Part shown: positions 24,751 to 52,309 of the stretch, in pieces
Numbering within the stretch: position 1 is the stretch's first letter
How the letters are laid out: each line of letters opens with the position of its first letter
DNA from: Shouchella clausii
GTDB lineage: Bacteria > Bacillota > Bacilli > Bacillales > Bacillaceae_D
DNA length: 64,000 nucleotides
Direction of reading: 5' to 3'
Assembly (NCBI RefSeq): GCF_001598215.1
Contig: NZ_BCXJ01000001.1
Span: 124,001 to 188,000, forward strand
The notes under the pieces: generated by a model
What the model was told of the DNA's origin: nothing
Seen by the model: the letters and a program-made list of their open reading frames with translations, nothing else
Database searches by the model: none
Made by a program: the position numbers and the translations under genes

Positions 24751-24786
24751 GTAAAACAATTTAACAGTATCGTTTGATTTTTTAAA

Positions 24787-25033
24787 AGCACTGATAAGGA
24801 TATGAGTTACTTTTTACGGTTTCCAGAGAGGGAAGGAGAGCTGAAATCTTCCTAACGCAGGAGAGTAACTTACCACCTTTGAGCTGTATTGGAGAATGAA
24901 GTACCCAATACCGTCTATGCTACGTTACAGCACCAGAGCCGTAAGTTCTTTTTAACTTATGGGAAATTGGGTGGAACCACGGGTAGAACGCACTCGTCCC
25001 TTCTTGGGGGATGAGTGCGTTTTTGTGTTTTTA
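24787..25033 (+). promoter_or_regulatory. T-box riboswitch 1 (threonyl)
   Basis: The leader starts with a stem I region (AAGGATATGAGTTAC pairing back with GAGTAACTTA). It then has the T-box sequence TGGGTGGAACCACGG at 24969-24983 and ends in a terminator (AACGCACTC / GAGTGCGTT plus T run, about 24988-25033). A threonine ACC codon lies in AATACCGTC in the specifier-loop region. Uncharged tRNA-Thr would stabilise the antiterminator. It is followed directly by a second, similar unit. Confidence 0.9.
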
Positions 25034-25040
25034 CAATTAC

Positions 25041-25290
25041 AAAGAAAGAGCGATGAAAAGGACAGGAATTATTTTTACGGTTTTCAGAGAGGGAAGGGTA
25101 AGCTGTGATCTTCCTAGCTTAGGAAAATAATTTACCACCTTTGAGCTGTATTGGGGAACTTAGTATCTAATACCGTTTATGCTACGTTACAGCACCAAAG
25201 CCATAAGTTTTTCTTTTTAGCTTATGGGAAATTGGGTGGAACCACGGGTAGAACGCACTCGTCCCTTCTTGAGGGATGGGTGTGTTTTTA
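25041..25290 (+). promoter_or_regulatory. T-box riboswitch 2 (threonyl), tandem copy
   Basis: This is a diverged copy of the preceding unit with the same order: AGAGAGGGAAG, CCACCTTTGAGCTGTATTGG, ATACCGTTTATGCTACGTTA, and TTGGGTGGAACCACGGG at 25232-25248, then a terminator up to about 25290. The specifier ACC is conserved. It ends about 30 bases before the synthetase ATG, so transcription must pass two tRNA-sensing terminators. Confidence 0.9.
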
Positions 25291-25322
25291 TTTTATTTAC
25301 TTTAAAAGGAGTGCTTCTTATT

Positions 25323-27236
25323 ATGAGTAAACCATTAATAGCGATTCAATTTCCAGATGGAAAGAGAAAGCAATTTCCGCAAGGTGTAACACTGGCTGAG
25401 CTTGCACAATCCATTAGTCCGAGTCTTTACAAAAAAACGATTGTTGGATGTATAAATGGTGTTCCTTCCGATTTAGCACGTCCAATCACAGAAAACGCTC
25501 ATATTTCCTTATATGATGTCACTTCAAAAGAAGGAATAGAAGTGCTTCGTCATTCAACAGCCCACTTATTGGCACATGCATTAAAGCGATTATACCCGGC
25601 TGTTCATTTAGGAGTGGGTCCTGTCATCGGAGATGGATTTTTTTATGATGTGGCGTTGGACCAACCGATTACCGTCAGTGATTTGCCAAAAATTGAACAG
25701 ATGATGAAGCAAATCATTAAAGAGAACATGGAGATAACACGTAAGGAAGTTACGCGCGAAAAAGCTAAACAGTTGTTTAAACAGGACCCTTTAAAACTGG
25801 AGTTGCTTGAAGATATACCGCCAGAAGAAACAGTGACTGTGTACGAACAAGGTGATTTTTATGATTTATGTCGTGGTCCTCATATACCTTCAACAGGCAA
25901 AATCAAGCATTTTAAGTTAACGAAAGTGTCTGGTGCATATTGGCGGGGCAATAGCGATAATCAAATGCTTCAACGTATTTATGGTGTTGCGTTTGCGACA
26001 AAAGATGAGTTACAAGATTATTTTGCCTTTCTAGAGGAAGCAGAAAAGAGAAATCACCGTAAGCTTGGAAAAGAGCTGGAATTATTCATGTTCTCAGAAG
26101 AAGCTCCAGGAATGCCTTTCTATCTTGCCAATGGTCAAATTATCCGAAATGAGCTTGAATCTTTTTTGCGAAATCTTCAAGCCGAATACGACTATAAAGA
26201 AGTTCGCACGCCGATCATGATGAATCAACGGCTATGGGAACAATCTGGTCACTGGGACCATTACAAAGAGAATATGTATTTTACACAAGTGGATGAGCAA
26301 CAATTTGCGCTAAAACCGATGAATTGCCCTGGCCATATGCTCATTTTTAAAAATGGGCTGCATTCGTACCGGGATTTACCGATTCGCATGGCAGAGTTTG
26401 GCCAAGTGCATCGTCATGAATTCAGTGGTGCCTTGAATGGTTTATTGCGTGTCCGTACATTTTGCCAAGATGATGCCCACATTTTCGTGACACCGCAACA
26501 AATTGAAGAGGAAATCACACTTGCATTAAAAATAATCGACCATGTCTACCAAGTATTTGGGTTTAAGTTCGAAATTGAATTATCAACACGTCCAGATGAT
26601 TTTATGGGGAGTGAAGACCTTTGGGAGCGGGCTGAAACTGCTTTAGAGAATGTACTGCAAAAACTTAATTATGCTTATAAAGTCAATGAAGGCGATGGGG
26701 CGTTTTATGGTCCGAAAATTGATATTCACATTAAAGATGCCATTCAACGCAGCCACCAATGCGCCACTGTTCAACTTGATTTCCAACTACCTGAAAAGTT
26801 TGATTTATTCTATATAGATAAACAAAACGAAAAAATGCGTCCAGTTGTTATTCACCGTGCTGTATTTGGTTCAATTGACCGCTTTTTAGGAATTTTAATC
26901 GAACATTTTGCGGGTGCTTTTCCTGTTTGGCTTGCGCCGGTACAAGTACAAATTGTCCCTGTTTCCCACGTTCACTTGGACTATTGTTTAACGATACAAT
27001 CAGAACTGAAACAAGTAGGGGTAAGGGTAAACATTGATGAAAGTGATGAAAAACTAGGTTACAAAATTAGAAAAGCACAAATGCAAAAAATCCCTTGCAC
27101 GATCGTGCTAGGTGACAACGAATTAAAAGAAGAAACAGTCACGGTTAGACAGTACGGAAAACCAGAAACAGAAAGGGTTCCATTTGAATGTTTTAAAAAG
27201 AAAATAGTGCGACAGATCAAAGAACGGAGCATTTAA
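25323..27236 (+). CDS. thrZ: Threonyl-tRNA synthetase
   Basis: A 637-residue enzyme that charges tRNA-Thr. It has a TGS domain (residues 1-65), an editing domain with the HxxxH in RHSTAHLLAHAL and the CRGPH motif, then the class II core with motif 2 in FGQVHRHEFSGALNGLLRVRTF, the zinc ligand region KPMNCPGHML, and a C-terminal anticodon-binding domain. The start is the ATG at 25323 after AAAGGAG; the open frame extends upstream into the T-box. The tandem T-box leader resembles the regulated second copy thrZ of Bacillus subtilis rather than thrS, hence the symbol. A strong terminator follows. Confidence 0.93.
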   Translation: MSKPLIAIQFPDGKRKQFPQGVTLAELAQSISPSLYKKTIVGCINGVPSDLARPITENAHISLYDVTSKEGIEVLRHSTAHLLAHALKRLYPAVHLGVGPVIGDGFFYDVALDQPITVSDLPKIEQMMKQIIKENMEITRKEVTREKAKQLFKQDPLKLELLEDIPPEETVTVYEQGDFYDLCRGPHIPSTGKIKHFKLTKVSGAYWRGNSDNQMLQRIYGVAFATKDELQDYFAFLEEAEKRNHRKLGKELELFMFSEEAPGMPFYLANGQIIRNELESFLRNLQAEYDYKEVRTPIMMNQRLWEQSGHWDHYKENMYFTQVDEQQFALKPMNCPGHMLIFKNGLHSYRDLPIRMAEFGQVHRHEFSGALNGLLRVRTFCQDDAHIFVTPQQIEEEITLALKIIDHVYQVFGFKFEIELSTRPDDFMGSEDLWERAETALENVLQKLNYAYKVNEGDGAFYGPKIDIHIKDAIQRSHQCATVQLDFQLPEKFDLFYIDKQNEKMRPVVIHRAVFGSIDRFLGILIEHFAGAFPVWLAPVQVQIVPVSHVHLDYCLTIQSELKQVGVRVNIDESDEKLGYKIRKAQMQKIPCTIVLGDNELKEETVTVRQYGKPETERVPFECFKKKIVRQIKERSI

Positions 27237-39459: not shown

Positions 39460-41082
39460 ATGGATGAATCAAAAAAGTCGCCCTCGTTTGGAACCAATGT
39501 AACGGGGCAAGGCGATGCGCTTGATCAGCGCAAAGCCGCAAATGAAAAAGACGATACATTGACAACCCGTCAAGGCCATCCCGTGAAAGACAATCAAAAT
39601 GTACGCACTGTCGGCAACCGCGGGCCTATGACATTAGAGAATTACGATTTCTTGGAGAAAATTAGCCATTTCGACCGGGAGCGTATTCCGGAGCGAGTTG
39701 TCCATGCCCGCGGTGCAGGGGCACACGGCTATTTTCAATCGTATGGAAAAGTAGGAGATGAACCAATTTCTAAATACACAAGAGCAAAAGTGTTTACAAA
39801 CACGGAAGTGAAAACGCCTGTATTTGTCCGGTTTTCTTCTGTTATTCATGGCATCCATTCCCCTGAAACACTTCGTGATCCCCGTGGCTTTGCGGTAAAA
39901 TTTTACACAGAGGATGGCAACTGGGACTTAGTCGGCAATAACTTGAAGATTTTTTTCATTCGCGATCCGCTAAAATTCCCGGATATGGTCCATGCGTTTA
40001 AACCGGATCCAGTAACGAACCGGCAAAGCATGGAACGGTTTTTCGATTTTGTCTCGCAAAGCCCAGAGTCGACCCATATGATCACGTTTGTGTTCTCCCC
40101 GTGGGGCATTCCGGCAAACTACCGGAACATGCAAGGATCGGGCGTCCATGTGTATAAATGGGTCAACGAGGAAGGAAAAGCGATGCTTGTTAAATACCAT
40201 TGGGAGCCTGTACAAGGGATTAAAAACTTGACCCAAAAAGAAGCAGAGCAAATCCAAGGAAAAAATTTCAACCATGCGACGCAAGATTTGTATGAAGCAA
40301 TTGAAAAAGGCGATTACCCTGAATGGGAGCTTTATGTGCAATTGATGGAAGACGGTGAACATCCAGAGCTGGACTTTGATCCTCTTGACCCGACTAAGCT
40401 TTGGTATAAAGACCAGTTTCCTTGGCACAAAGTCGGCAAGATGGTGCTCAACAAAAACCCGGAAAATTATTTTGCGGAAGTGGAACAAGCCGCCTTTGGC
40501 ACCGGCGTACTCGTCGATGGCCTTGACTTTTCCGATGACAAACTGTTGCAAGGACGCACGTTCTCCTATTCTGACACGCAGCGTTACCGCGTTGGCCCGA
40601 ACTATTTGCAACTGCCAATCAATGCCCCGAAAAAACGGGTAGCGACCAACCAACGAGATGGGCAAATGACGTATCATGTCGATAGTCCTCCAGGAATCAA
40701 TCCACACGTTAACTATGAGCCATCTGTACTTAACGGCTTAAAGGAAGCAGAAAAAGTCAACCCAGACCACACGCCGCACGTATCAGGCGAAGTGAAATAT
40801 GAAGCGATCAGCCGCCCGAACAACTTCGGCCAAGCAGGTGAAACGTATCGCCGTTTTTCTGACTGGGAACGGGACGAACTAATTGCCAATTTAGCTAATG
40901 CCCTGGCCGACGTCGATAAAAGGATCCAAAAGCAAATGATCGAGAATGTTACAGAAGCGGACCGCGACTACGGCAAGCGTCTAGAAGAAGCGATCAAACG
41001 TGTTCAAGAAAGCGTAGACGACAAAGAAGGACATGCGGTCAAGGAAGCAGAACAAGAAGGAATGCCGTCTGATCCTTACTAA
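39460..41082 (+). CDS. Catalase (heme, small-subunit type)
   Basis: A 540-residue monofunctional catalase that splits hydrogen peroxide. The catalytic segment is [20 protein letters not shown], with the essential histidine in [24 protein letters not shown] and the proximal heme signature with the tyrosine ligand ([15 protein letters not shown]) are intact. The acidic, lysine-rich C-terminal tail and the N-terminal [13 protein letters not shown] resemble the Bacillus spore-type catalase KatX more than vegetative KatA, but I do not fix a symbol. The ATG at 39460 follows AAGGAAGGAG. It is flanked by terminators on both sides. Confidence 0.95.
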
Positions 41083-41103
41083 AAAAACGAACTCCAAAAA
41101 AGG

Positions 41104-41138
41104 AAACCGTAGGCGTCGATTCGATACCTACGGTTTTT
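41104..41138. terminator. Terminator between catalase and the minus-strand cluster
   Basis: AAACCGTAGG at 41104-41113 pairs with CCTACGGTTT at 41127-41136 and Ts follow; reversed, the stem is also preceded by A-rich sequence, so it can serve both converging units. Confidence 0.85.
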
Positions 41139-41140
41139 GA

Positions 41141-41689
41141 TCAATTGAACTTATAATATTTTTTGCAAAGTTGAAAATGGTGATTTTCATGTATACAAAG
41201 CAAATGTATGCTTTGTATTAGATTAGGATAATCGGCGATTGGGTCTGGATAGCGAATATGGCCAGCGATTTCGTCTTTTATTTGACGGACCATGGTCTCC
41301 AATTGTTTTGTTTCGGCGTCTATGGTTGTCATTAATTGAGCGAATGACGTGTTCTTTTGGATCTCTTTTGGTGGTACTAACATACTTGGCGCTTTCATTG
41401 GCTTGTTATGCTTATTGTGATATTCCTTGTATATGTCTTTACTGTGCGTTTCATAAGGCTTGTTTTTCCTTATTGCAGCGATCGGTTTGGACAATGGCAA
41501 ATACAGCTTATTTAGCTGTATAAAACGTTTGATCATTAAAAATAAATGGTAGTACGTTTCTCCAAACGACCATTTATTTTCACAGGGTCTTTTCCATTCT
41601 TCCCCTTTAAAAGGTTCCATCGCAATGGACATTTCATCTCTCTGCTTGTAAAGTGTGTGAAAATGCTTTTCCATATAACTGCTCTTCAT
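41141..41689 (-). CDS. DinB superfamily protein
   Basis: A 182-residue four-helix protein. WSFGETYYHLFLMIKRF carries the first metal-binding histidine and LLCIHENHHFQLCKKYY the C-terminal HxxxH-type pair of DinB/YfiT-like proteins. Members include thiol S-transferases that disarm electrophiles. The ATG at 41689 follows AGGAGGCG. It is the last gene of the AT-rich minus-strand cluster and starts 8 bases after the phosphopantetheinyl transferase stop. A role in self-protection or tailoring is possible but inferred. Confidence 0.8.
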   Translation of the reverse strand: MKSSYMEKHFHTLYKQRDEMSIAMEPFKGEEWKRPCENKWSFGETYYHLFLMIKRFIQLNKLYLPLSKPIAAIRKNKPYETHSKDIYKEYHNKHNKPMKAPSMLVPPKEIQKNTSFAQLMTTIDAETKQLETMVRQIKDEIAGHIRYPDPIADYPNLIQSIHLLCIHENHHFQLCKKYYKFN

Positions 41690-41697
41690 AACGCCTC

Positions 41698-42366
41698 CTA
41701 GTAATGCTCTAAAGCATCAATGAGTTGTGAACAACCTAGTAAGTGTATGTTGTAATCAAAGCTTTCTTCGCTTAGGACACACCAACTATAACCTTCAATA
41801 AAACCTCGGACATAATATAAGGATTCACCATTTACTTCTAAACAATTCCTTTTGAAGTAATTGACTGTTAACGGGGTATTGAGGGTTCTCATAATATCAA
41901 TTAGCCGAATCCCTTTACATTTCACATAACTTTCTTTAAACGTCCAAGTGTCCAAGAAAAAGATATTTCTTGAGTGAGGAGAAAGACTTAGTAAGTGGCT
42001 TAACTCGTTATCTGTAAAAAAAAATTGAGCCAATTCTTGATTATATTCTTTGTACGCTTCTATGTCGGCTCCTATTAACCCTTTATTGTCATACGCACAC
42101 ATAATCCATTCATTGCAATGAGATAGGCTAAAGTAATCCTTTAATAAAAAAGGTTTTCCGTTTTCATTATAATGTATTTTTAACGGATGTTTTATTCCCT
42201 GTTTCTTAATAAGCACATACTGTAAAAGTAAATCACTATACAGAAGGTGGAGCCTCTTCACTGGATGAGAAGCTTTATTTAAACGATTTATCGTTCGCAG
42301 CGATAGATTTATTTTAGGTGAAAATTCTATTATGGAAGCCTTAATGTTTAAAAGAAATATATCCAT
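41698..42366 (-). CDS. 4'-phosphopantetheinyl transferase (Sfp type)
   Basis: A 222-residue enzyme that attaches phosphopantetheine to carrier proteins. KPFLLKDYFSLSHCNEWIMC, GLIGADIEAYKE and DTWTFKESYVKCKG are motifs P1, P2 and P3, including the Mg2+ ligands D, E and E. The ATG is 2 bases after the ketosynthase stop without a clear ribosome binding site of its own, so it depends on translational coupling. In this cluster its likely target is the ACP domain encoded at 48925-49533. Confidence 0.9.
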   Translation of the reverse strand: MDIFLLNIKASIIEFSPKINLSLRTINRLNKASHPVKRLHLLYSDLLLQYVLIKKQGIKHPLKIHYNENGKPFLLKDYFSLSHCNEWIMCAYDNKGLIGADIEAYKEYNQELAQFFFTDNELSHLLSLSPHSRNIFFLDTWTFKESYVKCKGIRLIDIMRTLNTPLTVNYFKRNCLEVNGESLYYVRGFIEGYSWCVLSEESFDYNIHLLGCSQLIDALEHY

Positions 42367-42368
42367 TT

Positions 42369-43577
42369 TTAATTTTGAAATGATGACAATAAGAGGGATG
42401 CATTATGACCGCCAAATGCAAAAGAATTATTTAAAATTTCCCCGCCGTTGTAGTTAGCGGTTTTTTCTAAAAGAAGATTCACATCAATGTCCTCATCCAC
42501 CTCTTCACTTCGTACATTGATAGTAGGTATCAATTTTCCTCTGCTAATCATCATAGAACATAGCGCTGTTTCAATTGCTCCAGCTGCTCCTAAAGCATGT
42601 CCATGTATAGACTTAGTGGATGCGACTAAAGGGTTATGACTAAACAACGCTTTAATCGCTGCTGACTCTGTTAAATCATTTAATTTAGTTGAGGTGCCGT
42701 GAGCATTAATGTATTCTATTTCATTAGAGGCGATTTTGGCATCCATTAATGCATTCTCCATGCAGCGTGTAATACCATTCATATCGGGAGCTAGCAATGA
42801 TTTAGCGTCTGAGGAACTCCCATAGCCTTTTACTTCACAATAAATGTGAACGCCTCGTTCTTTTGCATGATTAAGTTCTTCAAGAACTAGGAAAGCAGCA
42901 CCTTCACTCATCACAAATCCCGATCGATCTTTCGAAAAAGGTATGCTAGCTTTATCTATAGTCTTGGAATTAGTTAAAGCTCTTAACTTTCTGAAAGCCT
43001 CAATAACTTGTGGAATGACACAAGCCTCTGTCCCACCGGCCAATATCATTTTTTGGTTCCCTTGCTGAATTTTCTTAAAGGCTTCCCCTATAGCAACGGT
43101 ACCGGAAGCGCAGGCAAGAGAATAAGCGAGAGTTTCGCCTTTTATACCTAAATCAATACTTATGTTTGCAGTGATCATATTGATGAGATTTCTCGGGATA
43201 ACGAGCATCGTCATTTGGTCGACGCCGGCTAATGCTGCTGCACCAAATTCATCGGCGAGGGCACGAATCCCACCGACGGAGCTTCCAACAAAAACAGATA
43301 TGTTTTCACTATTCTCATCATTCATTTCAAGGTTGGCATCTTCAATAGCTTCCCTAGAAGCGATCAAGGCTAATTGGGTGCACCGGTCCATATAGCGCCT
43401 TTCTTTTGTAGACAAAGGTTCATTGAAAATGTCATCAACTTCCCCAACAAATTTTGTATTTTCATGTTTTGATGGAATAATCCCACTCTCTAGATTAAGA
43501 ATGCTTTCCCAAGTACTTTCTCTTGTAATTCCATTAGGTGATACGATCCCTATTCCTGTCACTACAACTTTTTTCAT
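42369..43577 (-). CDS. Beta-ketoacyl-ACP synthase, FabF-like
   Basis: A 402-residue condensing enzyme. The catalytic cysteine is in YSLACASGTVAIGE, the two histidines are in INAHGTSTKLND and STKSIHGHALGAAG, and the lysine before the second histidine is kept. It is FabF-like in length and opening (VVVTGIGIVSPNG), but lies in a secondary-metabolite-like cluster and differs from a housekeeping fabF in low GC. I choose the ATG at 43577, 9 bases after GAGGAGG; the ATG at 43583 is only 3 bases away. It probably extends or condenses an acyl chain on the cluster ACP. Confidence 0.9.
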   Translation of the reverse strand: MKKVVVTGIGIVSPNGITRESTWESILNLESGIIPSKHENTKFVGEVDDIFNEPLSTKERRYMDRCTQLALIASREAIEDANLEMNDENSENISVFVGSSVGGIRALADEFGAAALAGVDQMTMLVIPRNLINMITANISIDLGIKGETLAYSLACASGTVAIGEAFKKIQQGNQKMILAGGTEACVIPQVIEAFRKLRALTNSKTIDKASIPFSKDRSGFVMSEGAAFLVLEELNHAKERGVHIYCEVKGYGSSSDAKSLLAPDMNGITRCMENALMDAKIASNEIEYINAHGTSTKLNDLTESAAIKALFSHNPLVASTKSIHGHALGAAGAIETALCSMMISRGKLIPTINVRSEEVDEDIDVNLLLEKTANYNGGEILNNSFAFGGHNASLLLSSFQN

Positions 43578-43583
43578 AAGCAT

Positions 43584-43906
43584 TTGCCTCCTCGTTTGTT
43601 AGGGTTAAGCCCTTAAAATGGATGTGATTGGTAAAAGTCTTTTTTACTAAAATGTGGACCAGCTTTTTTTAATGCTTCAAAGGTCGTAGCTTGTTTGGTC
43701 ACGACAATGAAGACCCGTGAAACCGATACGGTACCGAGTCTCCTTGCCGGTGCTATCCGTCTAAAAAGGTTGCATAGAAATAGCGGGAATTACTAAGCAG
43801 CACAAACGAGTACTTGTTCTAACCGTTAAAGCCCTTAGTGATATGCTACTATGAACTGTTAACTCTTTATGTCTGAAAATTCCTTGACCTATCACCGCAG
43901 TTTATG
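43584..43906. other. Spacer in the cluster with an unrecognised open stub
   Basis: The minus strand has a 57-codon open stretch ending at 43613, from just after a stop near 43785. It reads through RLGTVSVSRVFIVVTKQ to KKAGPHFSKKDFYQSHPF. There is no good start codon and I recognise no family. It may be a gene remnant or the leader of the ketosynthase gene. Confidence 0.35.
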
Positions 43907-46048
43907 TCATTTAATGTTTTTTATTTTTGCTCTTGTTCTTATTAAGAAGAAGGTAAAAATAGCAATTACCATTCCATTACTTGCTAGTATAATCAACAGA
44001 TTGTCAGTTACTTTAACAAAGTTAACAAAATCAAACATAATTTGATCAAGGAATGTTCTCACTACAATTTGTGATAAAAGATAGGATCCAATAATACATA
44101 GGACCGCAATAGGAAAAGAGAAAGCAAAATGCATTTTCATCACTTCAGCTGTTGAAAAACCTTCTAACTTTAACGTTCTAATTGATTGAATGCTGTTTTG
44201 ATAACTGAATTCTAAAAGTGAGTACAACAAAGCAATTTGCAAAACAATAGCCAATGAAAGGATTAGGGTAATCTGCTTGTTTATCACTTCTAAAATATTT
44301 TCCCCAGATGTTATGATCTCGTCTCTAGTCAAAGTAGCTTCTATTCCATCATCATTAGCCTCTTCAAATGGCTCTGCGCGGGCAATGGCTGGCGTAAAAT
44401 ATGTCTCACTGTTAAATAGATCTCCGTCATCGGAGACTAAATAAATAGTGCTTACTGTGGTGACGTTGTTGATTTTATTGATCTTAAACGAGTAATCTTC
44501 CTGGTTCGTTACGTCTTTAAGAACCAATTCATCCCCAACGGCCTTCCCGTATTTATCAGCAAACGCTTGAGTGATGATTACATCCCCGTCTTCAAGCTCT
44601 AAATCGTATTTATAGTACGTTGAATCAGAGCCTATCACATAAACGCTCTGTGTAATTCCCTCCTGATCGTATAGGCTATACAATTCAAATTCTTCGCCAT
44701 TAAACTCATCCTGATTCAATGGCTTTAAAAACAGGATTTCTTCAAAAATATTTTCGGATGCTAAATCATCCACATACTTAGTTACTGAGTCTTTTAACAA
44801 GAAAGAGAAGTTAATCAATAACCCAACAAAGAAAATCAATATCATAAACAAGGCCATTTCTTTTTTATTCCTGTTTATTCGTTTTAAACGATAACGATAA
44901 GTGAACGGAATTAAATGTATAAATTTGCTTGTCACTTTTTTGGCTGATTTGATTTTACTTTTTTTCTTTTTGGCCTTTATATAAAATTGATACACTAAAA
45001 CAAAGTTTATAACCAACACGACTATTAATGAAACTATTAAACAAATAGCCAGAAGTGCCCAATCCATTTCGAGTAAGGGATAATTATAAATACGGCTATT
45101 CATTTGCATGATGGTTTCAATGGAAAAGAATCCAAGTGTACAGCCAATGATCCAGGCGATTAATAGTGTTAAATTTGTTTCAGTTGTGTAATGTTTGAAA
45201 ATGGTTCGCTTACTAAAACCCAACTTATTAAAGATTTCCAAGTTGTTTGTTTCTTTTTTTGACATTTCAAAGTGATAAACACTTAAGAGGACACCTACTA
45301 TTAGATATAGCAAGAACGTCAGAAGCAGGGCAAGATCTCTCGGTGCTTCCGCATCCCCTATGACTTGTTGTATTCTAGTATTGTTTTGAGAATCATTTAG
45401 ATAGATTGGTTCAACTATCTCTGAAACTTCTTCTACACTGAGGTCGCTCTTATAAGCATAGTAGGACGAGAACTCGTTCCCAAAAAGAGTATTAAATGTT
45501 TTTTCGTTAACAAATGCAATGCCAAAAACTTCTGAATTGGCCTGTAAAACAAGGTCGCTGTTTTTGGTTGTAATGTAATCTGGAGAAATGGCCGTTCCAA
45601 CAATCTTTAAAGTTTCACCATCAAGATTTAATTCATCATTAATAGCTAAGTCATTAGAAGTTAAAAAGTTACTGTCGATCAATATTTCATTAACACTCTG
45701 AACATCTTGACCATCTGTAACTTGGTGCTTGTTGATTTTTTCCCTCTCTTGAAATATACGTATGGTGGTGCCGTCTTGCCGTATCTCACCGTATTTAATT
45801 TCTTCATAATCAATGTTCTTAAGTGTTTTAGGCGCCTCAATAGTAATAAATGTCCCGTCCTCCACATTGTAATCACTATTAAAGTTTTCAACTGACTGGA
45901 GAACGCTGCTAGTGCCTACAAAGAAACTTACAAAAATACTTGTTGTAGCAAAAACGACAAGAAATATCACTAACAATTTTAGCTTATAAGTATTCAACCT
46001 TCTGCCGATTCGTTTTTTAAGCTTTTTCTTTGTATTGTTATTTACCAT
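43907..46048 (-). CDS. ABC transporter permease, FtsX/MacB-like, of the biosynthetic cluster
   Basis: A 713-residue membrane protein. One TM segment lies near residues 24-47, an extracytoplasmic domain runs to about 225, then three TMs to about 355, a basic linker (KAKKKKSKIKSAKK), another TM near 400, a second outside domain and three C-terminal TMs. The layout is that of FtsX permeases which export or resist peptides and lipids. It overlaps the ATPase gene by 7 bases (ATGGTAA). It probably exports, or gives resistance to, the cluster product. Confidence 0.88.
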   Translation of the reverse strand: MVNNNTKKKLKKRIGRRLNTYKLKLLVIFLVVFATTSIFVSFFVGTSSVLQSVENFNSDYNVEDGTFITIEAPKTLKNIDYEEIKYGEIRQDGTTIRIFQEREKINKHQVTDGQDVQSVNEILIDSNFLTSNDLAINDELNLDGETLKIVGTAISPDYITTKNSDLVLQANSEVFGIAFVNEKTFNTLFGNEFSSYYAYKSDLSVEEVSEIVEPIYLNDSQNNTRIQQVIGDAEAPRDLALLLTFLLYLIVGVLLSVYHFEMSKKETNNLEIFNKLGFSKRTIFKHYTTETNLTLLIAWIIGCTLGFFSIETIMQMNSRIYNYPLLEMDWALLAICLIVSLIVVLVINFVLVYQFYIKAKKKKSKIKSAKKVTSKFIHLIPFTYRYRLKRINRNKKEMALFMILIFFVGLLINFSFLLKDSVTKYVDDLASENIFEEILFLKPLNQDEFNGEEFELYSLYDQEGITQSVYVIGSDSTYYKYDLELEDGDVIITQAFADKYGKAVGDELVLKDVTNQEDYSFKINKINNVTTVSTIYLVSDDGDLFNSETYFTPAIARAEPFEEANDDGIEATLTRDEIITSGENILEVINKQITLILSLAIVLQIALLYSLLEFSYQNSIQSIRTLKLEGFSTAEVMKMHFAFSFPIAVLCIIGSYLLSQIVVRTFLDQIMFDFVNFVKVTDNLLIILASNGMVIAIFTFFLIRTRAKIKNIK

Positions 46049-46731
46049 TCTAAACTCTCCACCAATGTAACTTCTGTTTGTACTTCATCGTTTATCTTTT
46101 GGCCATCATGAATGGTAATGACGCGATTAGAGATCTTTGTAATTTGCTCATTATGGGTTATAAGAACAATCGTAGTTTGATGGCTTTGTTGTAGGTTTTG
46201 CAGTACTGTCAAGACTTCCCTAGATGACTTACCATCAAGTGCTCCAGTAGGTTCATCACAAAATAGGATCTTAGATTCTTTTACAAGGGCTCTTAGTATA
46301 GCCGCTTTTTGTTGTTGTCCTCCAGAACATTGATGGGGGAATAAATTTATAGCTTTGCGAATGTCCCATTCATCAATAAAGCTTTCAATTTCTTTATTCA
46401 ATGGATGTTCTAAATAAATATTTTCATGCAAAGTTAGGTCGTCTATTAAATTATATTCTTGAAAAACAAAAGCAATATCATTGCGTCTAAAATCATTTAC
46501 TTCTTTTTTAGTAAGTTTACAAACATCGCGATTGTTTACCTCTATGTCTCCTGATGTAACGCTTTCTAGCCCAGACAAACATTTAAGCATTGTTGTCTTA
46601 CCGGATCCCGATTTTCCTATTATTGTACAAAACTCGCCTTTCCTTATATCAAGATTAATGCCCTTTAGCACCTTTAATTCGTTTTGCTTATTTGCGTTAT
46701 AAATCTTCGTGATGTTTCTAGCCTTAATCAT
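46042..46731 (-). CDS. ABC transporter ATP-binding protein of the biosynthetic cluster
   Basis: A 229-residue ATPase with all motifs intact: Walker A GKSGSGKTT, signature CSGGQQQK, Walker B ILFCDEPTGALD and H-loop LITHN. It is of the LolD/MacB type that works with FtsX permeases. I start at the ATG at 46731, 6 bases after GGAGG. It overlaps the methyltransferase gene by 8 bases and the permease gene by 7, so three genes are translationally linked. Confidence 0.92.
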   Translation of the reverse strand: MIKARNITKIYNANKQNELKVLKGINLDIRKGEFCTIIGKSGSGKTTMLKCLSGLESVTSGDIEVNNRDVCKLTKKEVNDFRRNDIAFVFQEYNLIDDLTLHENIYLEHPLNKEIESFIDEWDIRKAINLFPHQCSGGQQQKAAILRALVKESKILFCDEPTGALDGKSSREVLTVLQNLQQSHQTTIVLITHNEQITKISNRVITIHDGQKINDEVQTEVTLVESLEW

Positions 46732-47977
46732 TCGAACCTCCATTTTTATGGTTAATTGTAATAAAATACGAATAATACGTATCGTCTGCTGGGACAATTT
46801 CACTTACTTTGAAGCCATGAGAATCTAATAGGTCGAGGAAAGGATTCCATTGTTCAGCTTGGGCAAAATCAGTAAGCATATTATTTAATAGAACTTCGGC
46901 TTGAAGAATGCTATTGCAAATATCATATTTATAACGGGAAAGCAAGTTCCATTTTTTGTTATGCTTTGCAATCAATTCTTGATACATTTCGAAGTCAGGA
47001 TAATACTGACATATTACTATCGAGCCGTTTTTATCAAGGATTTCTTTTAGTTTCTTAAATAAGTCCTCCTTTTCCTCTTGATTGAGATAAAATAGCATAT
47101 AACTCATATTGATCATGTCAAATTTTGTATTGAAAGTAAGGTTCTTTATGTCATCGTTATATAACTCCACGTTGTTTCTATCTTTATATTTATGTAGGAG
47201 CTTCTCGAAAACTTCTTGCTGCCTTTCAACTCCAACGATTTTGATGTCATTGGAATCTAAATGAATATCAATATAATTACCATTTCCGCACCCGATATCT
47301 AAAAAAGAGGTAATTTGTTTTTTTGATATAAATGATACATAATTGTTTTTTGTATAAATATTAAAAGCTAATTCTCCAAGATTAGTGTAAAAGTTTTCGG
47401 AAAAACTAGGGGATACTTGTTGACACAAATCTAATCCATTAATTTCTTGCAGATAGGTAAGCACTTCTTTTATATATACAAATTCTGTTTTTCTCATTAG
47501 CTTGCCAAGTGAAGTATGTTCCTCCTGCGTAATGGCATTTTCAATGAAATGATAATCATAAAAAAGTGTAGTTACCTCCTTATTGTAATCTCCATTAACT
47601 AAGTTGATTAATTGATTTTTATTTATTTCATCCACTATGTATTTCTTATTAAGAGAGTAAGTTTCTCCATTTTGAGAAATCATCTCCAATTGAATGCCCA
47701 AGTCCATCAATGAGTTAAATATGTTGTGGTTATAGCAATCGCTTTTTGTTATTTCTTTTACATCAATAAAATTTTTGTATACTTGGCTCAAAAAAATAAA
47801 TCTTATGTAGTTTTTCACTTTAGAGAATAAAAGTAATTGAAATAAAGGGGTATCTCTTACGCCTACTATTTTAGACAGCTTCACTAAAAGGTTTATACGG
47901 AAGGATCTCTCCGGTACTTTATGCCGTTTAGCCGAGAAATATGATTCATGTTTATTTAGTAACACATCGTACTGCAC
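46724..47977 (-). CDS. SAM-dependent methyltransferase of the biosynthetic cluster
   Basis: A 417-residue protein. The SAM-binding core lies in the second half: TSFLDIGCGNGNYIDIHL near residue 222, then IVGVERQQEVFEKL and FDMINMSYMLFYLNQEEKED. The first 190 or so residues are a helical, possibly winged-helix-like region, as in O-methyltransferases of secondary metabolism, but I cannot name it. The start is the GTG at 47977, 7 bases after AGGAGGG. Its place between the oxoamine synthase and the exporter suggests that it tailors the product. Confidence 0.85.
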   Translation of the reverse strand: MQYDVLLNKHESYFSAKRHKVPERSFRINLLVKLSKIVGVRDTPLFQLLLFSKVKNYIRFIFLSQVYKNFIDVKEITKSDCYNHNIFNSLMDLGIQLEMISQNGETYSLNKKYIVDEINKNQLINLVNGDYNKEVTTLFYDYHFIENAITQEEHTSLGKLMRKTEFVYIKEVLTYLQEINGLDLCQQVSPSFSENFYTNLGELAFNIYTKNNYVSFISKKQITSFLDIGCGNGNYIDIHLDSNDIKIVGVERQQEVFEKLLHKYKDRNNVELYNDDIKNLTFNTKFDMINMSYMLFYLNQEEKEDLFKKLKEILDKNGSIVICQYYPDFEMYQELIAKHNKKWNLLSRYKYDICNSILQAEVLLNNMLTDFAQAEQWNPFLDLLDSHGFKVSEIVPADDTYYSYFITINHKNGGSND

Positions 47978-48061
47978 AACGGTACCCTCCTTATGACCGA
48001 TGATGAATCATTAACAGGAAGCAGGGCGCTTCCTGTCTTGGATTTTCGTTTTTATATTAAT

Positions 48062-48907
48062 TTATAGTTTACTAGCAATTCTGTTATCAATTAAAATACT
48101 CAAGTTTTCTTTAATCGTTTCTAATGTGATCTGAAGTTCTTCTTTAGTATGTGCGGCTGAAATAAAAAATCGAAGTCTAGCCTCATTCTCTTTAACTGCA
48201 GGATAAACAATAGGCATTGCATTAATTCCATTTCTGAATAAAACTTCTGAAAATTCAAGGGCCTTCTCAGAGTTTCCCGTAATTAATGGGATAACTGGAG
48301 TGTCATAACTTTCACCAGTATTTACGCCTAATTTCTTTAGTCCTTCCAGAAAATAAGTATGGTTATCGGTCAATTTTTGAAATAACGCATCTCCTGTTTC
48401 GCATAAAGTTAATGAGGCTAAAGCTGCAGCAGCATTGGCTGGAGTCATTCCTACGCTAAAAATAAATCCTGGCGAATTATATCGTAGGTATGTTATAAAG
48501 TCCTTACTGCCGGCGATATAGCCGCCGCAACTATTCAATGACTTACTTAGTGTACCCATTAATATATCTACAGATTTAGGATCAACGCCGAAGTAGCTTG
48601 TAACACCCCGTCCATTTTTACCGATAGTCCCAATTGAATGAGCCTCGTCTACCATGAGAATTGCATTGTATTTTTCTTTAAGGTTAATGAGCTCTGGTAA
48701 TTTACAGATGTCACCATCCATGCTGTAAACACCCTCTACAACGATTAACACTCTACGAAATTTTTGCCTTAATTTCTGTAACTCGTTTTCTAAATGCCCC
48801 ATATCATTATGTTTAAAGGGTTTTCGTTTTGCTTTAGACAGTATAGCTCCTTGAATAATACTATTATGGGCTAAGGCATCGTGTAGAATCAGATCTTCTT
48901 CATTCAT
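48062..48907 (-). CDS. Alpha-oxoamine synthase, C-terminal part (frameshifted from the upstream frame)
   Basis: A 281-codon open frame holding most of a PLP-dependent alpha-oxoamine synthase (the KBL/serine palmitoyltransferase family). VVEGVYSMDGDICKLPEL, ILMVDEAHSIGTIGKNGRG (the PLP-nitrogen aspartate and histidine) and LMGTLSKSLNSCGGYIAG (the Schiff-base lysine in TLSKS) are present. The N-terminal part, including the start of the PLP fold, lies in the previous frame. Adding one base in the G tract at 48941-48946 gives a continuous product of about 490 residues. The internal ATG at 48907 is not a natural start. Confidence 0.85.
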   Translation of the reverse strand: MNEEDLILHDALAHNSIIQGAILSKAKRKPFKHNDMGHLENELQKLRQKFRRVLIVVEGVYSMDGDICKLPELINLKEKYNAILMVDEAHSIGTIGKNGRGVTSYFGVDPKSVDILMGTLSKSLNSCGGYIAGSKDFITYLRYNSPGFIFSVGMTPANAAAALASLTLCETGDALFQKLTDNHTYFLEGLKKLGVNTGESYDTPVIPLITGNSEKALEFSEVLFRNGINAMPIVYPAVKENEARLRFFISAAHTKEELQITLETIKENLSILIDNRIASKL

Positions 48908-48924
48908 AATGTTTCCAATGATAT

Positions 48925-49533
48925 TTACATTTGTACTGTGCCCCCCACTTGAATAATCGCATCTTCTGAACCTAAAAAATGGGAAATTTTTTGCTCGAGT
49001 TCTTGATGGATTTTAATTTCCCCACTAAGTAATCTACTCCCAGAAACACTTGTTCCAAAGCGACTTATCGCTTCTATAACCGATTGATTAATAAAGTCAG
49101 AGCCGTTAATACCTAGATAATTGTAAGTAGAATAATTAATTTTTTCTTCCCCTTCTATAATGATTCTGTTAGACGCTATCCCATCATTCTTTCTAAAATA
49201 TGGAACATGTTCTCTGGCATTTAAATATTGATGGAATTCTATAACTTCGGGCAAGCTGTCTAATAAAGATAGAGGCTTATTGTCAAGGCCTAGTTCTGTA
49301 GAAACCAATGAAAGAATGGTTCCGACTGTTACATCTTCTTGTTGAAATATGTTTTCTAGATCGGCCTCTTTTATTTCAGGAAAATCATTCACTAATAACC
49401 GATAAAAATCCATGGCCATCATGGAGTCCAGCCCAAGGTCATTTACTAATGAATCAGTTAGTGATATGTCAAGTAGATCATATCCTGTTATTTCAGCTAA
49501 ATGATTAATGATAACGTCGTATACTTTATCCAT
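48925..49533 (-). CDS. ACP domain fused to N-terminal part of the alpha-oxoamine synthase
   Basis: A 202-residue product. Residues 1-75 are an acyl carrier protein with the phosphopantetheine serine in NDLGLDSMMAMDF (Ser at about 37). From about 110 it is the N-terminus of an alpha-oxoamine synthase (NYLGINGSDFINQSVIEAIS, RFGTSVSGSRLLSGE). The frame runs out soon after QVGGTVQM, whereas one extra G would give QVGGHSTNVNIIGN and continue into the next entry. The arrangement recalls the ACP plus oxoamine synthase of PigH in prodiginine synthesis, but with one ACP. GGAGGTC precedes the ATG. Confidence 0.85.
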   Translation of the reverse strand: MDKVYDVIINHLAEITGYDLLDISLTDSLVNDLGLDSMMAMDFYRLLVNDFPEIKEADLENIFQQEDVTVGTILSLVSTELGLDNKPLSLLDSLPEVIEFHQYLNAREHVPYFRKNDGIASNRIIIEGEEKINYSTYNYLGINGSDFINQSVIEAISRFGTSVSGSRLLSGEIKIHQELEQKISHFLGSEDAIIQVGGTVQM

Positions 49534-49550
49534 AGTCGACCTCCAATGGT

Positions 49551-50795
49551 TTATTTATTTGGGGCAAAATGATCTACTAGAAACTTAGCAGCGTTTGCTG
49601 GACCGTCTACATGTTCCATAAGTTCTTTCATTTTCTTTGCTTTAATCTTCATTTCTTTACTGTTTAGGGTAGACTCTATTAATTGGCTTAACCTCTTAGT
49701 CGTAATGTCTCTTTTTGTAAGTTCTAGGGCGTTTCCAAAAAGTACGCAATCATGTATATTAGACTTTTGTTCTTGCTGGAGTCCAAGTCCTAAAAAGGGC
49801 TTTCCTGATAAACAAGCTGTTTGAACCGTGCCTTCACCACCATGGATAATCGATAAATCTATGATGTTTCCCAACTTATGGGCGGGAAGATAGTCGCTTA
49901 TGTGAATGTTCCCATCATTTGAAAAATCGTTTGCGCTAGACGCTAATGTTTTTTTCATTGGACAGAGGACGACTACAGGCAAATGCTTTAGTAAGTTTAA
50001 GATCTTTATAAGGATATCTTTACTTCCAGAGCTTCCCATCGCAAAATATATGATCGGCTGACTTGTCTTAATATTCTTTACAAATGAGGGCATAGGAGTA
50101 TCTAATTTAGCGTAAACTGGCCCAATGTATTGATAATGGAGGGGGAGATCATATATACCGCTAATTTCTGGAATTGTTGTGATTAAATTATAATCGGCAT
50201 CTAGTGCATCTATCGTATATTTAGGGAGACTGACTCCTTCCTCTTTTGCTATTTGAGAAAAAGACTTTGGTTTGTAAGTAATGTTTAAAGCAATTTTTTT
50301 ATAAAGGTTTAAAATCGTTTTTTTGGGCACTAGAAAATTATTTAATATGGCGGGTATTTTATGATGTCCTTTTAAAAAGTGTGTTCTTGTGTACGCCAAA
50401 GGCTTAATATATACGATAGGGATTTCACAAGCTCTTGCTGAAATAAAAATACTAAGAGTCGTTCCAATAACAACAACTGTAGGGCGAAATTCATTGAAGA
50501 TTTTTTTCTCGCTGTTAACCCGTTTTCTCAGCATGCTATATGTAAAAGGATGTTTTATACCTTTCATCTGATCAACTTTCATGATTTGCTCAATGTGTTT
50601 TTCTGTTAAGTGGGGCTCTAGATGAAAAAATTCAAAGTTTGCTTCTTCGATGAGGTAAGCATATTTTGTTGAATAACCTATAAATATGCAGCGGAAATAC
50701 GCAGAACATTTCTTGGCAACTTCTATTGATCTAGTGGTTTCAGCTAAGTTAAAAGTTTCTGGAGCAAAAAGAATGGTTTTCTTTATTATCCTCAC
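49551..50795 (-). CDS. Glycosyltransferase, GT1 (MGT/UGT-like)
   Basis: A protein of about 414 residues with the GT-B fold. The donor-binding C-terminal half has IIYFAMGSSGSKD, LSIIHGGEGTVQTACLSG and GLGLQQEQKSN, the nucleotide-sugar signature of macrolide- and antibiotic-type glycosyltransferases. It is the first gene of the cluster and ends 17 bases before the ACP gene. The start is uncertain: I use the GTG at 50795. A strong AAAGGTGAGG overlaps that GTG and would be better placed for an ATA triplet downstream. The in-frame TTG at 50846 lies in the promoter -10 region. Confidence 0.87.
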   Translation of the reverse strand: MRIIKKTILFAPETFNLAETTRSIEVAKKCSAYFRCIFIGYSTKYAYLIEEANFEFFHLEPHLTEKHIEQIMKVDQMKGIKHPFTYSMLRKRVNSEKKIFNEFRPTVVVIGTTLSIFISARACEIPIVYIKPLAYTRTHFLKGHHKIPAILNNFLVPKKTILNLYKKIALNITYKPKSFSQIAKEEGVSLPKYTIDALDADYNLITTIPEISGIYDLPLHYQYIGPVYAKLDTPMPSFVKNIKTSQPIIYFAMGSSGSKDILIKILNLLKHLPVVVLCPMKKTLASSANDFSNDGNIHISDYLPAHKLGNIIDLSIIHGGEGTVQTACLSGKPFLGLGLQQEQKSNIHDCVLFGNALELTKRDITTKRLSQLIESTLNSKEMKIKAKKMKELMEHVDGPANAAKFLVDHFAPNK

Positions 50796-50831
50796 CTTTT
50801 TCTCGTTAAATTTTCCCAATAGATTAAAATT

Positions 50832-50860
50832 AGTATACAAAACCAATTACCATAAAGCAA
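50832..50860 (-). promoter_or_regulatory. Promoter of the biosynthetic cluster
   Basis: On the minus strand TTGCTT (50860-50855), a 17-base spacer and TATACT (50837-50832) form a good vegetative-type promoter about 35 bases before the likely glycosyltransferase start. No other gene precedes it on this strand until the MFS gene, which has a terminator. Confidence 0.6.
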
Positions 50861-51055
50861 GTATTATTTTCAATTTTTTGTATTTGTTATGTAAAAAAAG
50901 TAATATAATTGTGTAAATATAATCGATCTTATAGTCTCTCTATGCCAACTTCTGAAATTAATTATAAGAGTGAGCGCTATTATGCAATATTAGCGTTTAT
51001 TTTAATTACAAATTTACTAGTCCCATTCTAAACTGGATTGTCTATAGGCAAAGCA

Positions 51056-51084
51056 AAAGCCGGTTAAATGCACTAACCGGCTTT
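51056..51084 (-). terminator. Terminator of the MFS gene
   Basis: AAAGCCGGTTA and TAACCGGCTTT form a perfect 11-base inverted repeat around a 7-base loop. On the minus strand TTTTGCTTTG follows. It separates the MFS gene from the cluster. Confidence 0.85.
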
Positions 51085-51106
51085 CTAAACAGCTTCGACC
51101 TTTGGC

Positions 51107-52309
51107 CTAAGAGGCTTCGTCGCTTTTACTCGGTTCGTTCTTGTCTCGCCGCAAAAGTGGCATTGTAATCGCTAAAGCGAGAAGCGAGATAATTCCTGCC
51201 AATGTGAAAATGTGAGCGATGCCGATATGTTCAGCAACAAAGCCTGCGCCGTACGGGCCAATAAAAATGCCGATCGCATAGACAGATTGGTAGAAACCCA
51301 TAACGGACGTTTTTAAAGAAGGCTGTGGGAGTGAAGCAATTTGTGAGAGCAACAGCGGCAACACTACACCGATTGTCAAGCCAATGACGCCGTGCAACAG
51401 ACTGATCGTTGCCAGTGTTGTAGCAAACGGCATACAAAAAAAAGTGAAACAAGCGACAATGAGAGAAAGCACAATCAACCGGATTTCATTGCGCTTTGAA
51501 ACATTAAAAAAAGCAACTCCTAAAGATGCAGCGGCATGTGGAATAAAGAAAGCAGCCATCAGCCAAATAAGCTGCCCTTCACGAACGCCGTGGGCATTTG
51601 CATAAACAGGCGTGAACCCAAAAATCGAAATAAACAACAGAGCGTGCGCAAATAGCGATACAAACGTTAATGGCAGCAGATGTTTGATTGACAGCACTGC
51701 CTTGACTTGTTTCCCTAAACGTTGAGAGCCATGATTCTCTGCTTCTTGCGGCACTTCCTTAATAAAAAGGGCAAGTAAGAGTCCGATTCCTGCCGCGACG
51801 ATCCCGACCCAAAACGGAATGCTCCAGCCAAATTGTTCAACGAGAATGCCGGCCGTTACCATGCTGAGAAATTGCGGCATGACCGTCAAAAATTGCAACG
51901 TTCCCATTGCTCGACCAGATTGACCTGGACCAAAATAGTCGGCGTACATAATCGTCGCCATCACCCACATGGCAGCAGTAACGCCTGCTAGCAAACGTCC
52001 TGTCAAAACCCATGCAAACGAAGTCGACGATAGTAAAATGATTCCGCTTAGGATAGCGACTACAAAGCCGCCTACATAAAAATGCTTGCGCAAATGTCGC
52101 AATGAATCAAGCAAGACGCCAAGTGGAAAACGGAGCAACACTTGCGTAATGCCGTAACTGCCGAGAATAATCCCAATCGCTGCATACGTAAAGGGAATTT
52201 GTTCTAAATAAAGGCTAAATATTGGCACATAGCTGTAAGTGCATAGCCAAAAACAGAAAACAGACGCCAAAAAGACGAGATGGTGTCTCCGTTTCAATGC
52301 AATAGACAC
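51107..52309 (-). CDS. MFS transporter
   Basis: A 400-residue protein with 12 hydrophobic segments. The A-like motif FPLGVLLDSLRHLRKH after TM2 and repeated GAGFVAEHIG late in the chain fit the major facilitator superfamily, with an efflux-type look (drug or sugar exporters of the YfcJ/YxiO kind). The cytosolic central loop is near residues 195-210. I choose the GTG at 52309, 7 bases after AGGAGG; an ATG at 52315 lies only two bases from that site. The substrate is unknown. Confidence 0.9.
   Translation of the reverse strand: MSIALKRRHHLVFLASVFCFWLCTYSYVPIFSLYLEQIPFTYAAIGIILGSYGITQVLLRFPLGVLLDSLRHLRKHFYVGGFVVAILSGIILLSSTSFAWVLTGRLLAGVTAAMWVMATIMYADYFGPGQSGRAMGTLQFLTVMPQFLSMVTAGILVEQFGWSIPFWVGIVAAGIGLLLALFIKEVPQEAENHGSQRLGKQVKAVLSIKHLLPLTFVSLFAHALLFISIFGFTPVYANAHGVREGQLIWLMAAFFIPHAAASLGVAFFNVSKRNEIRLIVLSLIVACFTFFCMPFATTLATISLLHGVIGLTIGVVLPLLLSQIASLPQPSLKTSVMGFYQSVYAIGIFIGPYGAGFVAEHIGIAHIFTLAGIISLLALAITMPLLRRDKNEPSKSDEAS

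Follow-up and report, generated by a model that had tools for sequence, protein, structure and literature searches.

Positions 41141 to 50846 of a 64,000-nucleotide stretch of the Shouchella clausii genome (contig NZ_BCXJ01000001.1, positions 124,001 to 188,000; hereafter the window) hold, on the minus strand, a compact biosynthetic gene cluster built around an acyl carrier protein (ACP) joined to an alpha-oxoamine synthase (AOS). Judged by its sequence, the cluster is real, co-inherited and rare, and a literature search that was partly limited in coverage found no description of it. We consider it roughly an even bet that this is a mobile, self-contained cluster that makes a ring-closed, methylated, glycosylated and exported aminoketone.

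All functions named for this region in an earlier sequence-only reading are supported by Pfam and NCBIfam profiles. The first gene encodes a GT1-type glycosyltransferase (49551-50846; Pfam EryCIII-like_C and UDPGT, NCBIfam MGT below cut-off). It is followed by the ACP with the N-terminal AOS part (48925-49533; PP-binding at residues 7-59, AOS profiles from residue ~89-135), the C-terminal AOS part with the pyridoxal phosphate (PLP) lysine and the His/Asp/His residues (48062-48907; Aminotran_1_2 and bioF-type profiles), and a class I S-adenosylmethionine methyltransferase of 417 aa with a helical N-terminal domain (46724-47977; Pfam Methyltransf_25, AlphaFold model). Next come an ABC exporter ATPase (46042-46803; Pfam ABC_tran, DevA/LolD-like in NCBIfam below cut-offs), an FtsX-type ABC permease (43907-46048; Pfam FtsX in two stretches), a FabF-type beta-ketoacyl synthase (KS) with a Cys-His-His set (42369-43583; Pfam ketoacyl-synt N and C, fabF model), an Sfp-type phosphopantetheinyl transferase (41698-42366; Pfam ACPS) and an accessory DinB-superfamily protein (41141-41689; Pfam DinB_2). 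The genes are tightly packed, with gaps between mechanical ORFs of 17, 17, 84, -80, -7, 2 and 8 bp, the exception being a 323-bp spacer (43584-43906, minus strand) without a convincing gene between permease and KS.

Two findings had been named in advance as refuting the sequence-only reading. For one of them, a match to a characterised pathway, the literature searched gave no example. The other was separate inheritance of the genes; instead, glycosyltransferase, ACP-AOS, methyltransferase, ABC ATPase, permease, KS and Sfp keep this order in four Bacillaceae genera, Shouchella, Gracilibacillus, Alkalicoccobacillus and Terribacillus, amid unrelated flanks. Relatives were sought in 84,980 species genomes with two exact methyltransferase peptide patterns, a scan that requires exact 7-residue peptides and may let diverged carriers escape; 146 stretches matched, 5 of which were relatives. 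Methyltransferase identity to the window was 99% in S. tritolerans FJAT-45399, 63% in Gracilibacillus halophilus, 61% in Alkalicoccobacillus porphyridii, 57% in Terribacillus halophilus and 34% in Enterococcus sp. RIT-PI-f. FJAT-45399 belongs to the same species as the window, and its counterpart genome G479 is 99.4% identical to the window over 64 kb (339 mismatches, 16 gaps). A comparison of 56 mechanical ORFs in the flanks of the Bacillaceae loci, four in all, gave only four matches between loci (26-39% identity), which we read as common domains rather than common neighbours.

The Enterococcus locus is a diverged part-cluster with ACP-AOS, methyltransferase, ABC ATPase and permease. Its contig stops within the permease, so that no KS is seen there, and no glycosyltransferase lies ahead of the ACP-AOS. 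At L014:3519-4478, upstream of this diverged cluster, lie an AvrD-family gene (PF05655) and an AAA_28 gene, accompanied by another ABC/FtsX pair and a response regulator of the LuxR type.

Carriers are scarce by other measures as well. At E <= 1e-25 the methyltransferase profile matched, among 41 family genomes, three (the window's own, the same-species genome and A. porphyridii) and, in an even sample of the class, the window itself alone among 398 genomes. The ACP-AOS profile (E <= 1e-120) matched four of 396 genomes of the class sample, namely the window's and three others (G168, G375, G426). No methyltransferase match was found in the plasmid collection. ACP-AOS matched 34 plasmid records there, at less than 60% identity among the matches listed, and none of four such records inspected carries the cluster. 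The sequence comparisons would be best explained by a cluster that is passed on as a unit and moves horizontally between genera.

In the window the cluster lies between a catalase gene and a major facilitator superfamily (MFS) transporter gene, and the spacing of these two genes was compared in 11 other Shouchella genomes, none of which holds the methyltransferase. Taken from match positions, the distance came to ~60-75 bp in two genomes (G001, G009), ~470-480 bp in two others (G002, G005), ~720 bp in G008 and G010, ~3.9 kb in G004 and ~19-25 kb in G003, G007 and G011; G006 had no MFS match. This indicates that the cluster arrived or left at the catalase/MFS site as a block. In G008 and G010 the sole gene at the site is an intact DinB gene (L043:1685-2233 and L044:1684-2232), 88-91% identical to that of the window. 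Since in these cluster-less sister species DinB remains at the site, with ~12 nt ahead of it that resemble the sfp end, the arrangement suggests that the cluster was lost there by deletion; alternatively, it may have been inserted beside an older dinB in the window's lineage.

Of the eight functions claimed, seven thus form the conserved unit, while DinB is loosely attached and appears accessory. Three genera (Shouchella, Gracilibacillus and Terribacillus) have a DinB gene next after sfp; Alkalicoccobacillus does not, and its genome carries DinB on another contig. At E <= 1e-25, DinB was matched in 10 of the 396 genomes of the class sample and in 9 of the 41 of the family, counting the window's own. 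DinB was rejected as a core gene because it is not found after sfp in Alkalicoccobacillus and occurs elsewhere without the cluster.

The cluster had been described as AT-rich relative to its surroundings, and this is borne out by a GC content of 0.30-0.40 per kb against ~0.43-0.48 in the adjoining kilobases; single kilobases elsewhere in the window, outside the cluster, fall as low as 0.33. The same-species copy behaves alike (0.349 versus 0.46 in its flanks). In the three other genera the corresponding values are 0.326 versus 0.368/0.334, 0.327 versus 0.406/0.342 and 0.390 versus 0.44, so that the drop against the flanks is clear in Shouchella and smaller elsewhere.

The single promoter proposed at 50860-50832 (minus strand, TTGCTT-17-TATACT, assigned by eye) fared less uniformly. 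It lies below the threshold of a promoter scan, which returned 3 sites there against 1.6 expected. By eye, the glycosyltransferase gene of the window and that of each of the three other genera is preceded by TATACT and, 16-18 nt upstream of it, by a TTG hexamer, and because this arrangement recurs in all four genera the assignment is probably correct. The TTG start of the glycosyltransferase ORF at 50846 overlaps the -10 region of the promoter candidate, and the true start is probably a GTG or another non-ATG codon near 50795, again by eye. Orthologues of the glycosyltransferase in the three other genera share 61-64% identity.

In the AOS, residues H223, D296, H299, K331 and R455 (numbering of the FJAT-45399 protein, L010) are invariant in five cluster sequences and align with the same residues of serine palmitoyltransferase (SPT); we take them to have the corresponding catalytic roles. 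Phylogenetic analysis covered PKS-linked (polyketide synthase-linked) ACP-AOS from G168, G375, G426, one plasmid each of Planktothrix and Streptomyces, and two plasmid loci that also carry PKS and capsule/sugar genes, together with 7 Kbl-type enzymes drawn from 20 extracted and one SPT. In this tree, which holds no authentic RedL or PigH AOS, the cluster enzymes fall into a 100/100 clade with the PKS-linked ACP-AOS, apart from the Kbl-type enzymes and the SPT, and the five of them form a single branch (94/95) inside it. The nearest ACP-AOS outside the cluster family (G168, G375, G426 and the Planktothrix plasmid) are 44-47% identical, and the window's genome has no second AOS at E <= 1e-10. 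In the PDB, the ACP shows a weak match to 5y08, the structure of PigH's ACP (E 2.7e-5), with no single stretch passing. Both the grouping and this match lend support to the comparison with prodiginine synthesis made in the sequence-only reading.

The same enzyme family also invites a different outcome, in which an open-chain, sphingoid-like lipid amino ketone is methylated, glycosylated and exported as a glycolipid-like product, the KS only supplying the acyl chain. The closest solved AOS structure is indeed a bacterial SPT, and two plasmid AOS relatives adjoin PKS and capsule/sugar genes. However, the AOS lies apart from the single SPT in the tree and scores 337.9 of the 640 bits set as the SPT cut-off, and no ketoreductase or N-acyltransferase was found in the nine proteins scanned, which leaves the open chain a possible but improbable end product. 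Membership in the sphingolipid-type SPT was rejected on the same score and separate branch.

The KS was predicted to be FabF-like with a Cys-His-His set, and Cys158, His295 and His329 are invariant in five aligned KS, two of them identical. It reaches 408.7 bits with the fabF model (cut-off 493.75) and 79.5 bits with the PigJ model (cut-off 900), which places it outside the PigJ family; the latter model found nothing above its cut-off in the own genome and 14 controls. The enzyme is free-standing and shares 39% identity with a host FabF-like protein and 38% with a second host KS, and its closest solved relative is 3-oxoacyl-ACP synthase 2 (4ls5). The KS tree joins four of the cluster enzymes in a single branch (99/98), which sits with FabF and apart from three PKS-type KS of AOS loci.

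The methyltransferase is less easily placed. Its AlphaFold model has a pLDDT of 75.8 and a pTM of 0.69. Foldseek and VIA-align disagree on C- versus O-methyltransferase, and O-methyltransferases score as well as C-methyltransferases, so that the enzyme may methylate either carbon or oxygen. This bears on a short-chain route in the manner of SxtA, whose start module combines methyltransferase, GNAT, ACP and AOS in one chain. In such a route malonyl-ACP or ketoacyl-ACP would be methylated by the methyltransferase, the AOS product would be a small amino ketone, and the KS would come in late or serve elsewhere. The cluster shares methyltransferase and ACP-AOS with this module but holds them in separate genes, has a free KS, and shows no GNAT domain in its nine proteins by Pfam; together with the equally good O-methyltransferase scores, this makes an SxtA-like route very unlikely.

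The pathway that we propose would begin with the charging of the ACP by Sfp. The FabF-type KS would extend a starter, probably a host fatty acyl-ACP, with malonate, so that the fused ACP carries a beta-ketoacyl thioester, and the AOS would condense it with an amino acid of the glycine, serine or alanine type under loss of CO2. The resulting 2-amino-1,3-diketone may then cyclise, in the manner of the RedL and PigJ/PigH steps, giving a 5-alkyl-pyrrolin-3-one/3-hydroxypyrrole. The methyltransferase would act either on the ketoacyl-ACP, at its alpha carbon, or on a ring oxygen, GT1 would attach a sugar, and the FtsX-type ABC pair would export the product.

In prodiginine synthesis, according to two papers, a KS forms the beta-ketothioester from which PigH/RedN (with serine) or RedL (with glycine) lead to a 4-hydroxypyrrole or 4-keto-pyrroline (PMC11188435, PMC12654105). 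A methylated alkyl hydroxypyrrole or pyrrolinone is proposed here because KS, ACP-AOS and methyltransferase match this logic with separate parts. The acyl-aminoketone, methylation, sugar and export of the sequence-only reading therefore appear largely right, but its open-chain end point is probably one step short, because the KS and ACP-AOS arrangement closes pyrrole-type rings in prodiginine synthesis. A more specific form of our proposal is that the cluster is a dissociated ('type II') counterpart of RedL, carried between genera as a 9-kb block. Here the free-standing FabF-type KS, a C-methyltransferase acting in trans and the ACP-AOS would yield a methylated alkyl 3-hydroxypyrrole, and a sugar would cap its unstable enol oxygen before export; such a product would represent a new class of glycosylated alkyl-hydroxypyrrole in Bacillota. 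We put this form forward only tentatively and regard it as doubtful in its full detail.

Weighing against an active pathway in this strain, the AOS frame is broken in its copy: both ACP and AOS had been named and are present, but the AOS is split over two ORFs. At the break, which the sequence-only reading did not report, a short homopolymer run differs in length by one base, and the PLP residues lie on the C piece and not on the N piece. As sequenced, the AOS should be dead, since the N piece lacks the PLP residues and the C piece is split off, and the pathway should be off in this strain if the break is not a sequencing error, which is a possible alternative for the window strain. The carrier-fused AOS is a single ORF in the other carriers, of 490 aa in FJAT-45399, 490-497 aa across that genome and the three other genera, and 485 aa in Enterococcus. 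Programmed frameshifting was rejected because FJAT-45399 and four other carriers have a single open frame.

A decaying or inactive remnant, kept by chance in this species, would fit the frame break, the 323-bp spacer and the two sister species that hold DinB alone at the same site. The other genes are full-length here, though, and the whole AOS of FJAT-45399 and four other carriers also speaks against decay, so that we think a remnant unlikely. The spacer itself is shared with FJAT-45399 but not with the clusters of Gracilibacillus, Alkalicoccobacillus and Terribacillus; no gene was found in it and no second copy in the own genome, and it is possibly a scar.

Compared with known systems, the cluster resembles the MBC branch of prodiginine synthesis (PigJ/RedX, PigH/RedN) in having a KS beside a carrier-fused AOS and methylation in the pathway. 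It differs in its FabF-type KS, its one ACP, the extra GT1, exporter and Sfp of its own, and in that no pyrrole starter genes were seen. With the undecylpyrrole branch (RedL/RedK) it shares an AOS akin to KS-AT-ACP-AOS units and an expected fatty starter. Features typical of RedL are missing, as KS and AOS are not in one chain and no RedK-like reductase lies beside them; the KS is separate and FabF-like, and the cluster has no acyltransferase, ligase or reductase but methyl and sugar steps instead. Bacterial SPT has the same fold family and aligned PLP residues, whereas the cluster AOS sits on a separate branch, is fused to an ACP and has a KS partner.

Closest among ACP-AOS outside the cluster family are those of three loci from genomes of the same class (G168, G375 and G426; L055-L057), which likewise have an Sfp-type gene alongside. 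They differ by a large PKS and a reductase, and no methyltransferase, glycosyltransferase or ABC pair was noticed near their AOS in translations inspected by eye. By Pfam these loci comprise an AMP-binding ligase, ACP-KS-AT, ACP-AOS, an NAD-epimerase-type reductase and the Sfp-type gene, and we read them as RedL/RedK-like sets and candidate alkylpyrrole pathways; in L055 the KS is spread over two overlapping frames.

If our proposal is right, the cluster adds to the Bacillaceae a small-molecule family that we did not find described. Its ACP-AOS would then work without the large synthase that most relatives seen here are part of, and the eight genes would offer a minimal system for stepwise reconstitution of the KS, ACP-AOS, methyltransferase and glycosyltransferase steps in pyrrole-type ring building.

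Among smaller points, the start of the ABC ATPase is likelier at 46731 (by eye), and Rfam models gave no match over window positions 41000-51200. Elsewhere in the window, two tandem T-box leaders (24782-25269; Rfam RF00230, 105.9 and 111.1 bits) precede a threonyl-tRNA synthetase-like ORF at 25224-27236.

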